From Coriobacteriia bacterium (GTDB lineage: Bacteria; Actinomycetota; Coriobacteriia; Coriobacteriales; Atopobiaceae): a DNA stretch of 64,000 nucleotides. Position numbers and translations under genes: made by a program. The notes beneath the pieces were generated by a model. The model saw nothing but the letters and a program-made list of their open reading frames with translations, did not search any database and had not been told where the DNA came from. This document shows positions 2,883 to 54,130 of the stretch, piece after piece (the first letter of the stretch is position 1; the number at the start of each line of letters is the position of its first letter). The stretch lies in NCBI GenBank assembly GCA_030530145.1, contig JAUMVN010000001.1:186001-250000 (forward strand), written 5' to 3'.

Positions 2883-3950
2883 CTAGCCCCTGCCGCCCGG
2901 GGCCTCGATCCCCAGGTGGTCGAAGGCGGCGAGGGTTGCCTGGCGCCCCTGCGGCGTTCGGACGATGAGGCCGCGCTGCAGGAGATACGGCTCGTAGACG
3001 TCCTCGAGGGTGGCGGGGTCCTCGGCCACGGCGGAGGCGACGGTGGTGAGCCCGACGGGGCGCCCGCGGAAGGTCTCGCAGAGGGCGCGCAGGATCTTCA
3101 CGTCCATCCAGTCGAGCCCGAGCGCGTCGATCTCGAAGAACTCGAGGGCCTCGGCCGCGACCTCCCAGGTGATGTCGCCCGCGGCCTTGACCGTTGCGTA
3201 GTCGCGCACGCGCTTGAGCAGGCGGTTGGCCAGGCGCGGCGTGCCCCGCGAGCGCGAGGCGATCTCGAGCGCGCCCTGCTTGTCCACCATGACGCCCAGG
3301 ATCGAGGCCGAGCGCGTGACGATGTAGGCAAGCTCCTCCGGCGAGTAGTAGTCGAGGCGGTAGCTGATGCCGAAGCGGTCGCGCAGCGGCCCGGTGAGAA
3401 GCCCCGTGCGCGTAGTCGCGCCCACGAGGGTGAAGCGCGGCACGTCGATGCGGATCGAGCGGGCGGCGGGGCCCTTCCCGATGACGATGTCCAGGAAGAA
3501 GTCCTCCATGGCCGGGTAGAGCACCTCCTCGATCTGGTGGTTGAGGCGGTGGATCTCGTCGACGAAGAGGACGTCGCCCTCCTCGAGGTTGGTGAGGATG
3601 GCGGCGAGGTCGCCGGCGCGCTCGATGGCCGGCCCCGAGGTCGTGTGGAGCTTCGCGCCCATCTCGTTGGCGACGATGCCCGCGAGCGTGGTCTTGCCGA
3701 GGCCCGGGGGACCCGAGAAGATGACGTGGTCAAGGGGCTCGTTGCGGCTCTTTGCCGCCTCGATGAGCACCTTGAGGTTGGCGCAGACGCGCTCCTGGCC
3801 GCAGTACTCCTCGAGCGTCCGGGGCCTGAGGCTGCGGTCCTGCTCAAGGTCGTCCCCCGTGAGCTCGCCGGTGACGGCGCGCGGCGCGGGCGCCCCCGAG
3901 ACGCCGGGCGCGTTCGTGGAGAAGAGGTCCTTCTCGCCGGCCTCCCACAT
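2883..3950 (-). CDS. ruvB: Holliday junction branch migration ATPase RuvB
   Basis: AAA+ motor of the RuvAB complex, which drives branch migration of Holliday junctions. Walker [10 protein letters not shown], Walker [12 protein letters not shown] and sensor I GATTR are intact. The C-terminal winged-helix region ([14 protein letters not shown], then RTPQGR) is also present. At 355 residues it is of normal length, with a Gly/Ala/Pro N-terminal extension of about 25 residues. Its ATG shares one base with the TGA of ruvA (TGATG), so translation is probably coupled. It is the last ruv gene. Confidence 0.98.
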
Positions 3951-21739: not shown

Positions 21740-21931
21740 CTTCTCGCCACAAAACGGCGCCGCAGGCGACGGAGGGACCCCCATGCGCCACAGAATCGCG
21801 GCCCCGGTGACGTCAAACGCCCTTCTCGCCACAGATACGCGGTGCGGGCGACGTCGCCATGTCGCCGAAGGCGGGGTTCTGTGGCGACGCTCGGTATCGT
21901 CGTCGCCGGAGCCGGGGTTCTGTGGCAAGAG
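21740..21931. repeat. 41-bp-period inverted repeat array, family 1 (3 forward + 2 reverse)
   Basis: Three forward units (TTCTCGCCACA at one end, GGCGACG at the other) have GCCACA at 21746, 21787 and 21828. Two reverse units follow with TGTGGC at 21880 and 21921. Spacing is exactly 41 bp within each half. It fills most of the 321-bp gap between the lipase-like start and the thiD stop. The same family appears at 45876-46104. No open frame here resembles a protein. Confidence 0.88.
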
Positions 21932-27273: not shown

Positions 27274-27496
27274 CGCCCCGGAAACGACGGTTGCAGCAGC
27301 AAGAGAGACAAACCCGCCCCTCAAATGTCGGTTGCAGCAACGTGAGGCGCCCTTTCGCCCCTTAAACGACGGTTACAGCAATCGCCCGTTGCTGCAATCG
27401 TCATTAAAGGGGCGCGCTTCTCATCGCCGTTGCTGCAACCGTCATTAAAGGGGCGCGCTTCTCACCACCGTTGCTGCAACCGTCGTTAAAGGGGCG
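27274..27496. repeat. 41-bp-period inverted repeat array, family 2 (3 forward + 3 reverse)
   Basis: Forward units (CGCCCC..., ACGACGGTTGCAGCAA) have TTGCAGCA-type cores at 27291, 27332 and 27373. Reverse units (TTGCTGCAAYCGTC, then TTAAAGGGGCG) have TTGCTGC at 27389, 27430 and 27471. All four within-half steps are exactly 41 bp. The centre of symmetry is near 27385. It fills the space between the fucO-like promoter and the end of the TIM barrel gene; no credible gene overlaps it. Confidence 0.9.
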
Positions 27497-37749: not shown

Positions 37750-37822
37750 CCCAAGACACCGCCGATCCCCGTTTACAAGGCAGCGAACGATTCGCTGCGG
37801 CGCCCTAAAGACACGAACTCGC

Positions 37823-37945
37823 GAGAATGTACGATTGACTGGCGACTGAGTGAGTAGCAATGGGTTTCGAGTGGCGCACAACTGCGCAAACGCACACGAA
37901 ACCGGGCCGGCTACTCAGCCGACCCGGTTTCAATCGTACATTCTC
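37823..37945. repeat. Long nested hairpin between convergent genes
   Basis: Outer arms 37823-37838 and 37930-37945 are exact 16-bp complements. Inside, GAGTAGC/GCTACTC and GGTTTCG/CGAAACC pair again, and an alternative strong stem (37898-37912 with 37917-37931, one mismatch) also forms. Total length 123 bp. It separates GH1 (+) from dapH (-) and may stop both transcripts. A single related copy lies at 27529-27562. Confidence 0.8.
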
Positions 37946-37971
37946 AGCAGTTTGAGCGACCGGCGCGCCGC

Positions 37972-45008: not shown

Positions 45009-45839
45009 ATGAAGAAGAAACTCACGGCACTTATCACCAGCGCCGCGTGCGCCCTGTGCGCCGTCGCGATGTGCCTCGTCATAGCCGGCTGCGGCGGCTC
45101 GACCTCGGCGGCAGAGCCCGTGGGCAAGGACATGCTCGGCTACTGGGAGCTCACGAGCGGCAAGGCCGACGGCGAGGAGCTCACCGCCGAGGAGGTCGAG
45201 TTCATGGCCTCCATCGACGTGAAATTCCTCCTCTACCTCGCCGAGGACGGGACCGCCACGGTCGACACCTTCGGCACGGTCGAAGACCTGACCTGGGACT
45301 ATGACAAGGCGACCCTGGCCTACGCCGGCGTGACCGGCACGTTCAAGCTCTCCGGCGGCACCCTCATCTACGGCGACGGCGGCTCCAACGAGCTCGTGTT
45401 CAAGAAGGGCGACGACTCCGCGGCCGAGAAGATCGAGCAGGACCGCAAGTCGATGGAGGAAGGCGCGGCCGGCACCGCCGTGGAGACCCAGCGCGTCGCC
45501 ATCGACCCGCCCATCGTCATCGCCGACGACGAGGTCGCGAACATCACCGCGGTCGCACGCGTGGTGGACGAGAACGGCATGGGCGGCATCGAGCTCGCCA
45601 TCGTCAACAAGTCCGGCGAACGCTTCGCGACGCACACGCTCACTGACGGCACCGTCAACGGCCGCACGTACGAGACCTACGACTACGCCGACGTCAACGC
45701 CGGGGAAACGGCCAACGAGGTCGTCGCATTCGACGGGATCACCACCATCGACGAGCTGAAGGACGTCAACTTCACGCTCACCGTCTACGAGGTCAAGTAC
45801 TTCAACGACCTCGGCGTCTACGAGGTCAGCATCCCGTAG
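45009..45839 (+). CDS. Lipoprotein of unknown function
   Basis: 276 residues beginning with a lysine-rich signal peptide and lipobox (CLVIAGCGG), so the mature protein should start at Cys28 and be anchored outside. After it, a beta-rich lipocalin-like or DUF4352-like layout: LGYWELTSGKADGEEL, then FLLYLAEDGTATVDTFGTV. The C-terminal domain (NITAVARVVDENGMGGIELA) looks like an Ig-type fold. AAAGGAG precedes the ATG. It follows the SPFH gene by 119 bp and may share its operon. Confidence 0.75.
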   Translation: MKKKLTALITSAACALCAVAMCLVIAGCGGSTSAAEPVGKDMLGYWELTSGKADGEELTAEEVEFMASIDVKFLLYLAEDGTATVDTFGTVEDLTWDYDKATLAYAGVTGTFKLSGGTLIYGDGGSNELVFKKGDDSAAEKIEQDRKSMEEGAAGTAVETQRVAIDPPIVIADDEVANITAVARVVDENGMGGIELAIVNKSGERFATHTLTDGTVNGRTYETYDYADVNAGETANEVVAFDGITTIDELKDVNFTLTVYEVKYFNDLGVYEVSIP

Positions 45840-45875: not shown

Positions 45876-46104
45876 GCGCCACATAATCGCGTCCCCGGCG
45901 ACGGCGGCCGGGCTTCTTGCCACAAAACCGCGTCCCCGGCGACGGCCCTGGTCTTCTTGCCACAAATACGCGCCCCCGGCGACGTTGCGATGTCGCCGGG
46001 GGCGTTGATCTGTGGCGGGCAGCAGGTTTCAAGTCGCCGGGGGCGTTGTTCTGTGGCGAGAATAGCGGGGGCCGTCGCCGGGGACGCGGTTCTGTGGCGA
46101 GAAG
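45876..46104. repeat. 41-bp-period inverted repeat array, family 1 (3 forward + 3 reverse)
   Basis: Forward units read GCCACA...CGCG(T/C)CCCCGGCGACG, with GCCACA at 45878, 45919 and 45959; reverse units have TGTGGC at 46011, 46052 and 46092. Steps are 41, 40 | 41, 40 bp. The centre of symmetry is near 45988 (GGCGACG-TTGCGA-TGTCGCC). It fills the gap between the ends of the convergent lipoprotein and response-regulator genes. Same family as 21740-21931, but better preserved. No gene seen. Confidence 0.92.
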
Positions 46105-46146
46105 GGCAAGGCGCGCCGCCCGTGACAAGAAACCCTGCCCAACCCG

Positions 46147-46770
46147 CTATTCTCCGCCGAGCCCGGGCACGATGTTGCCCTCGGCCACCGCGTGGACCGC
46201 GAGCCGCAGGATGTTGTCGTAGCCCGTCTTGGCCAGGATCTCGCCGATGCGGCGCTTGACGGTGCCTTCGCTCATGTAAAGCTCGGCGGCGATCTCCTTG
46301 CGCGTCTTGGCCTCGCACACCAGGCGCAGGATCTGGACCTCGACGTCCGTGAGCGCGGCGGTGCCGGAGAAAATCGAGTCGGGCGCCTTCGGGAACGTCT
46401 GGTAGCCCGAGGCGGTGGAGCGCATGACGGCGAGAAGCTCATCGATCCCGACGTTCTTGTAGACGAAGCTGTCCACACCGGCGCTTCTCGCCTGCTCGAC
46501 GAAGGTGACCTCGGGCATGCCCGTCATGATGACCACGCGAACCGACGGGTCGGCCTCCTTGATGCGCCGCGCAGCGACGATGCCGTTGGAGCCGTTCTCC
46601 GTGCAGACGTCCATGAGCACGAGCGCGCACCCGAGCTCGGCCGCCCGCGCCGGGGCCTCGGCCGCGTCGGCGAGGCTCGCCGCCACGTGCATGTCCGCCT
46701 GGGCGTTTATCGCGCAGGCCAGGCTCTCGCGCAGCATCGCCTGGTCCTCGACCAGAAGCACCTCGATCAT
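46147..46770 (-). CDS. LuxR-family response regulator
   Basis: 207 residues. The receiver has acidic pocket VEDQ, phospho-acceptor Asp54 (VLMDVC), switch residue in IMTGMP and conserved Lys in FVYKNVG. The LuxR helix-turn-helix follows (LTDVEVQILRLVCEAKTRKE, then SEGTVKRRIGEILAKTG). Its start overlaps the histidine kinase stop as ATGA. Targets unknown. Confidence 0.93.
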   Translation of the reverse strand: MIEVLLVEDQAMLRESLACAINAQADMHVAASLADAAEAPARAAELGCALVLMDVCTENGSNGIVAARRIKEADPSVRVVIMTGMPEVTFVEQARSAGVDSFVYKNVGIDELLAVMRSTASGYQTFPKAPDSIFSGTAALTDVEVQILRLVCEAKTRKEIAAELYMSEGTVKRRIGEILAKTGYDNILRLAVHAVAEGNIVPGLGGE

Positions 46771-53810: not shown

Positions 53811-54130
53811 TGGTACTCGGCCGGTTCCGCGAGCGCGCTGGCCCTGTCCGCTTCGAAAACGGACCGAGTACCGATCGCGGTGCGCCGCCGGCTCGCATCC
53901 CGTGGTATTCGGTGCTTTTTTCGCGCACGCACCCGAGGCAAATTGGTTCTCGGCCGATTCCGCGAGCGCGCCGCACCCGGCCCGCGTCGAAAACCAGCCG
54001 AGTACCGATCGCGGTGCGCCGCAGGCCCGCCATCAGTGGTATTCGGCGCCATTTCCGCGCACCCAAGGCGGAAATTTGGTACCCGGCAGATTTCCCGCGC
54101 ACGCACCCGAGACGAATTGGTACTCGGTCG
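53811..54130. repeat. 41-bp-period repeat array, family 3 (TGGTAYTCGG units)
   Basis: Forward cores TGGTACTCGG or near variants start at 53811, 53903, 53944, 54037, 54077 and 54118; reverse cores (CCGAGTACC) lie at 53864 and 53998. Close steps are 41, 40 and 41 bp, and a larger unit of about 133 bp (forward-reverse-forward) is duplicated. Shared flanks include TTCCGCGAGCGCGC and CGCGCACGCACCCGAG. It fills the gap between the M20 gene and the converging small gene. Open frames cross it in several phases but look like repeat translations, not proteins. Confidence 0.88.

Follow-up and report, generated by a model that had tools for sequence, protein, structure and literature searches.

The locus examined here poses the question of what kind of element sets short units in two opposite orientations around a single centre, in the gap between the ends of two convergent genes. 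It lies in the window, i.e. the whole stretch of 64,000 nucleotides that was analysed, and an earlier note on this DNA had counted three forward and three reverse units in it, with steps of 41, 40 | 41, 40 bp. The count of units stands, each of the six being 25 bp long, and the measured steps are 41, 40 | 41, 41 bp, so that only the last of the steps was given wrongly (Table 1). The placement of the array between convergent gene ends also holds, with a + strand stop on its left and a - strand stop on its right. As detailed below, the defining feature of the class to which this array belongs is its geometry, namely units placed almost exactly four helical turns (41 bp) from one another to the left and right of a single inverted pair at the centre.

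The whole 229 bp had further been viewed as a single imperfect palindrome. This description applies to the conserved blocks of the units only, and fails for the spacers and the outer unit pairs: mirrored spacers are 0.357 alike against 0.345 for random ones, and the complementarity of mirrored unit pairs 2 and 3 does not exceed that given by the consensus. We noted that the central loop is identical to the loops of two other arrays of the genome (L041 and L056), where it stands in the other orientation (ATCGCAAC); centres have hence been copied from locus to locus. Separately, a 12-bp exact inverted copy (GAGAATAGCGGG / CCCGCTATTCTC) links an array spacer (46058-46069) with positions 46143-46154 at the stop of the response regulator gene.

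Table 1. Coordinates of the array, its parts, its flanking genes and further arrays within the window
Feature	Position	Strand	Remarks
Left flanking gene, putative lipoprotein	45009..45839	+	No Pfam match; start uncertain; stop (45839) 36 bp before array
Family-1 phased array, 3 forward + 3 reverse units	45876..46104	.	G000:C54:231876-232104
Forward unit 1, outermost	45878..45902	+	GCCACATAATCGCGTCCCCGGCGAC
Forward unit 2	45919..45943	+	GCCACAAAACCGCGTCCCCGGCGAC; 41 bp after forward unit 1
Forward unit 3, innermost	45959..45983	+	40 bp after forward unit 2; left arm of central hairpin
Central loop, 8 nt	45984..45991	.	GTTGCGAT
Reverse unit 1, innermost	45992..46016	-	Starts 33 bp after the start of forward unit 3; forms right arm of central hairpin
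Reverse unit 2	46033..46057	-	41 bp after reverse unit 1
Reverse unit 3, outermost	46074..46098	-	41 bp after reverse unit 2
Terminator-like stem-loop from central pair	45971..46004	-	13 pairs; tail CGTATTTGTG; 1 vs 0.5 expected in shuffles
Right flanking gene, response regulator	46147..46770	-	LuxR-type (GerE) domain; stop (46147) 42 bp after array
Second family-1 array	21746..21926	.	3F/2R; pitch 41, centre 33
Family-2 array	27274..27496	.	Unit CGCCCCTTAAACGACGGTTGCAGCAACG; 3F/3R; pitch 41, centre 31; family-1 geometry, other sequence
Third-family array	53811..54127	.	TGGTACTCGG...; same-orientation steps 41, 40, 41, plus inverted copies

Copy number, pitch and helical phase

The units of this array define a family (family 1) with the consensus GCCACARAA-N9-CGGCGAC, of which a weight-matrix scan of fetched loci detected about 119 units in about 24 arrays of the 2.47-Mb genome (124 hits before one doubly counted locus was dropped). 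The idea that the array might be the only one of its kind, raised earlier as a point that would tell against it, is thereby rejected. With up to 3 mismatches allowed, the pattern GCCACANNNNCGCGYCCCCGGCGAC has 83 matches in the genome versus 1 for the reversed pattern, and the family-1 pattern has 10 in the window, where 0.06 would be expected by chance. A typical array consists of 3 forward and 2-3 reverse units at a 41-bp pitch, with one centre enclosing an 8-nt loop. Conservation is mostly at or above 95% in GCCACA, A8 and CGGCGAC, with position 24 at 89% and position 20 at 83%, and the middle of the unit is tolerant of change; about one-third of the units are preceded by a CTTCTY motif. One family-1 array is interrupted by a contig break, falling at the end of contig C21 and the start of C29 (L042, L044), and given that the genes flanking the break are neighbours in the sister species, these contigs are probably adjacent.

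The pitch is nearly invariant: 67 of the 74 same-orientation steps in family 1 are 41 bp, the rest being 40 (2), 42 (3), 51 (1) and 62 (1), with the last two values corresponding to one or two extra helical turns. The centre measures 33 bp in 18 arrays and 32 bp in one, and arrays lacking an inner unit have values of 73 and 75. An unseeded lag scan of noncoding DNA recovered lag 41 in 17 regions and lag 82 in 10, with 23, 40 and 51 in 2 each and a median of 0; over 464 kb, codon multiples aside, only 41 and 82 were prominent. Spacers of different family-1 arrays are 0.346 alike at the same position and 0.345 elsewhere. Given that the spacers are thus saturated with substitutions and the end blocks of the units are conserved, both spacer length and end blocks appear to be constrained.

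Adjacent spacers within one arm are 0.457 alike, compared to about 0.35, which points to local tandem duplication. It might accordingly be argued that the 41-bp steps were inherited from an old duplication and are under no selection, with hairpin correction perfecting the centres. Duplication is indeed apparent in these spacers (0.46 vs 0.35), at locus L037 and at 27428/27469 of the window, but saturated spacers that are almost free of indels, exceptions that are mostly of ±1 bp or whole turns, the conserved end blocks, and a single pitch across families of different sequence make this neutral origin very unlikely.

Across distinct interval classes a common period of 10.2-10.25 bp was obtained (mean cosine 0.94; p ~5e-5 against uniform spacing), a p-value that is optimistic because the repeat classes were picked after the lag scans, the scans themselves being unseeded. 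Spacing in whole DNA turns, as expected of a helically phased protein-binding array, is therefore present, and the earlier surmise that steps of about four turns could place bound proteins on one face of the DNA is upheld by a pitch that stays at 41 bp despite the saturation of the spacers and departs from it mostly by ±1 bp or by whole turns.

The same pitch is seen in at least four further sequence families of this genome, made of directional units of about 25-28 bp, and the centre of 57-58 bp (outer span) of family 1 is common to families 2, 4 and 6. Family 2 (unit CGCCCCTTAAACGACGGTTGCAGCAACG) comprises 76 units in 15 arrays, with a pitch of 41 bp in 46 of 47 steps and a centre of 31 bp. 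Families 4, 5 and 6, found by inspecting places reported by the lag scan, share the pitch of 41 bp, with exceptional intervals of 51 in family 4 and a centre of 105 bp in family 5. The third-family array of the window contains a duplication of 133/134 bp. Two other inverted features were observed in the window: a near-perfect long hairpin at 545-654, with 43-nt arms that are 93% complementary and a 24-nt loop, and a pair of 42-nt inverted arms (71%) at 37797-37971, lying 91 nt apart and ending in ATGTACGATTGA / TCAATCGTACAT.

Nowhere in the genome of the sister species (G001) does the family-1 unit have a match, families 1 and 2 have none in 400 kb, and the lag scan of 400 kb yielded no lag 41. 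That species has four arrays of its own, each with exactly three palindromic units of 39 bp (TTCCAGTGGAA core) that are spaced only by 50, 60 or 61 bp; a second repeat type, CTCACACGAAGGGGGCTTCTGC, occurs there at L205:17783-17860 with a 40-bp step. In Tractidigestivibacter a related 25-bp unit, GCAACAAAA...CTCCGGCGAC, alternates R-F-R-F, mostly at 30 bp, and a member of another genus (G021) carries an eight-unit tandem array of the palindromic unit CACCCGnAGAnnnTTCTGCGGGTG (L237:7654-7940) with steps of 41, 30, 41, 41, 41, 30 and 41 bp. Independent families and species hence show spacings of 30, 41, 50-51 and 60-62 bp, several of the comparison genomes being represented by just 100 kb and by a single array or a few. 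An exact-match scan for same-orientation unit pairs in 84,980 species genomes, which may leave out the genome of the window itself, returned 43 scattered single matches, four of them in Olsenella, two species of Tractidigestivibacter and bacterium OL-1. The open-access literature yielded no description of such arrays in this group of bacteria. The common pitch of unrelated families, together with the whole-turn pitches of the relatives, is more suggestive of DNA structured by bound protein than of a single long RNA stem. That the Atopobiaceae possess an array system that is flexible in sequence and strict in geometry, with whole-turn spacing and each genome mainly using a pitch of its own, is a wider proposal that we regard as rather doubtful.

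Location behind genes and pairing at the centre

The 39 arrays of families 1 and 2 are distributed over 22 tandem, 9 convergent and 2 divergent gaps, with 6 at contig edges. Divergent gaps are depleted (2/33, p 0.02), and in 17 of the 22 tandem gaps the array is nearer the 3' end of the upstream gene (p 0.017). None of the 24 family-1 arrays overlaps a gene, and 1 of the 39 does so under a second gene model; gene starts are rough, as the genes were derived with a simple codon-usage finder. Pfam searches with 20 proteins, mostly products of flanking genes, revealed no shared function.

For family 1, a comparison of the variable unit middles gave a match of 0.73 in the innermost forward-reverse pair, versus 0.545 between arrays (permutation p 2e-4), and of 0.51 in the second mirrored pair (p 0.63). 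The corresponding values in family 2 are 0.81 (p 2e-4) for the innermost pair and 0.635 vs 0.52 (p 0.002) for the second. Covariation in the central helix, measured by pair counts, scored 0.177 versus 0.110 in shuffled data, a value reached in 0 of 500 shuffles. Given that only the innermost pair of family 1 is complementary beyond the consensus and that the spacers are random, the data do not support one long palindrome or RNA stem, and what is left of the large palindrome is a hairpin of about 58 nt at the centre, with a folding energy of up to -62 kcal/mol. Its pairing could be selected or could be a product of quasi-palindrome correction. No covariation of an intra-unit stem was detected in families 1 and 2; pairing in these families is between units, as opposed to the palindromic units of G001 and G021, and the pairing signal of the Tractidigestivibacter units does not exceed that of composition. 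In the window array, one strand of the central pair resembles a terminator, with 1 such structure found and 0.5 expected from shuffles. A short, bidirectional terminator-like hairpin at the array centre is possible.

These results bear on the suggestion that the RNA of the whole array folds into a long stem serving both mRNAs, which we reject for family 1, where the test of mirrored pairs showed only the innermost pair to covary, and for the spacers, given their random-level likeness. A more general form of the RNA explanation holds that the element is transcribed from both sides and ends transcripts in both directions or stabilises their 3' ends, its forward and reverse halves being interchangeable and pairing with each other. 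The covarying 58-nt hairpin, the terminator-like call on one strand, and the location at 3' ends with its rarity in divergent gaps are consistent with it. However, the outer mirrored pairs of family 1 lack covariation and family 2 has a weaker signal (0.635 vs 0.52), the Tractidigestivibacter pairs do not covary beyond composition, the phase is that of B-DNA (10.2 bp) and not of A-RNA (11), and U-tracts are weak, with the T-run of family 5 on the wrong side. We consider this explanation quite unlikely. No Rfam family scored above its gathering score.

Dispersal and the proposed nucleoprotein array

The similarity between arrays ends where the arrays end. At the three orthologous sites that could be placed (one array of the genome of the window and two of G001), no array is present in the other species; since positions are not shared at these comparable loci, dispersal fits better than a fixed local function. 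We found no target-site duplications (longest flank repeat 5.87 vs 5.72 ± 0.21) and no match of the array units to plasmids, phages or viral contigs.

The genome has a single-copy, RAYT-like Y1 transposase gene on contig C52 (L212, 19877-20209), situated between inverted copies of GTCCCCAAAGCTCTCAAAYGAGAG, a repeat with a 35-bp pitch and 18 genome matches. Mobilisation of the arrays by this resident gene is rejected, as a different repeat flanks it. Families 2 and 6 carry a tag (CGCCCCnnAAA) similar to that of the RAYT repeat, GTCCCCAAAG, so that a distant link is conceivable. Two Y1 genes of G001 are likewise flanked by yet other repeats and not by the phased units of that species. The palindrome GACAAAGGGACNGTCCCTTTGTC and its relatives flank both of these (L214:1290-1312, 3576-3598 and 3616-3638; L213:1050-1076 and 1976-2002), and palindromes of this type were also seen at gene ends in two Tractidigestivibacter loci (L078 and L106); they are likely to be the RAYT-type REPs of Atopobiaceae. 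The earlier note had also allowed that the units could belong to the end of a known mobile element, a possibility that gains no support from the above searches, the Rfam result or the differing repeat of the RAYT-like gene.

The main rival to a host function is selfish dispersal, in which the arrays are non-autonomous, REP/MITE-like DNA spread by a transposase, their extragenic location reflecting purifying selection and their geometry that of a transposase synaptic complex. Species-specific sequences and positions, homology that stops at the array ends, the copying implied by three arrays with identical central loops, and the presence of one RAYT-like Y1 gene whose repeat has a related grammar (GTCCCCAAAG plus a palindrome) all accord with it. 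On the other side, the repeats of this gene and of the G001 Y1 genes differ from the array units, target-site duplications are lacking, and, unlike in decaying selfish copies, almost all units are intact next to spacers that have diverged to the level of random sequence. We hence view selfish dispersal as somewhat unlikely.

Our tentative preference, held with a little less than even confidence, is for dispersed, REP/BIME-like extragenic repeats that are helically phased, forming a predicted protein-binding DNA array around a terminator-like hairpin and serving as a two-way boundary. In each unit a protein would recognise double-stranded DNA by way of the two conserved end blocks, GCCACARAA and CGGCGAC, and tolerate change in the middle. 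Given the whole-turn spacing, the bound proteins would all lie along the same side of the helix, and from the centre towards both ends a short nucleoprotein tract may grow within the untranslated DNA downstream of genes. The inverted pair at the centre might in addition fold as a terminator-like hairpin, such that the element would act as a two-way boundary of transcription and topology at gene 3' ends. Binding by a protein, the cooperativity of that binding and the role as a boundary are predictions from these sequence patterns. REP-like repeats are common and their function is a long-standing question; as it is the spacing, with exceptions of whole helical turns, and not the sequence that is kept across families and species, spacing offers a testable way to ask if extragenic repeats serve as architectural DNA bound by protein, and the arrays point to a candidate binder in actinobacteria of the gut and mouth, whose molecular biology is little developed. 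If the wider, rather doubtful proposal of a sequence-flexible and geometry-strict array system holds, a genome-specific architectural protein or co-evolving paralogues would build one-face tracts behind genes, and such tracts would be a novel class of element in bacteria, acting in the nucleoid or as transcription boundaries.

Comparison with known repeat systems

The earlier claim that the layout is neither that of CRISPR nor of a simple REP pair is sustained, as the units invert at one centre and head-to-tail runs flank that centre. Regular unit spacing is shared with CRISPR, from which the arrays differ in this inversion, in having 5-6 units per array at many loci, and in the variable middle between conserved blocks. 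Iteron-like and operator arrays with helical phasing use direct repeats a whole number of turns apart to align proteins along one face. The arrays described here resemble these in their direct repeats spaced in whole turns, but occur as dozens of dispersed, mirror-symmetric copies behind unrelated genes, in several families with one pitch.

The likeness to REP/BIME elements, including the GTAG- and CGTC-tagged ones (PMC3733652), lies in short, dispersed, intergenic units of many copies, with several families per genome, located mostly behind genes in tandem or convergent gaps near 3' ends, and in inverted pairs that can form hairpins. The broad sense of a short, many-copy extragenic repeat thus applies. 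However, in families 1 and 2 the unit is not itself a palindrome and shows no intra-unit stem covariation. The arrays furthermore have head-to-tail runs with 2-6 units per side of one centre at exactly 41 bp, are spaced in whole helical turns, and have no transposase link that we could find. A GTAG or GGAG tag is absent from the family-1 unit consensus. CGTC-tagged REPs have a CGTC (or TGTC, CCTC) tag, an 8-9 bp stem, a 4-5 nt loop and a CCA tail, and form mostly HH dimers, with HT dimers negligible and no Actinobacteria named (PMC3733652). The family-1 unit carries cGTCGCC at its inner end but has no stem of 8-9 bp within the unit, and its arrays consist mainly of head-to-tail runs, which sets it apart from that class. 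With regard to REPINs, the RAYT-mobilised REP doublets (PMC3116915), the core with its two inverted REP-like units and the RAYT-like gene in the genome are points of likeness, and the flanking of that gene by GTCCCCAAAGCTCTCAAAYGAGAG and not by array units is a point of difference; in neither this genome nor G001 is a RAYT gene flanked by the array's own repeat. Given that the tests for an intra-unit palindrome and for a RAYT association failed, we consider the phased arrays to be REP/BIME-like in their distribution, as a variant and not a member of that class.
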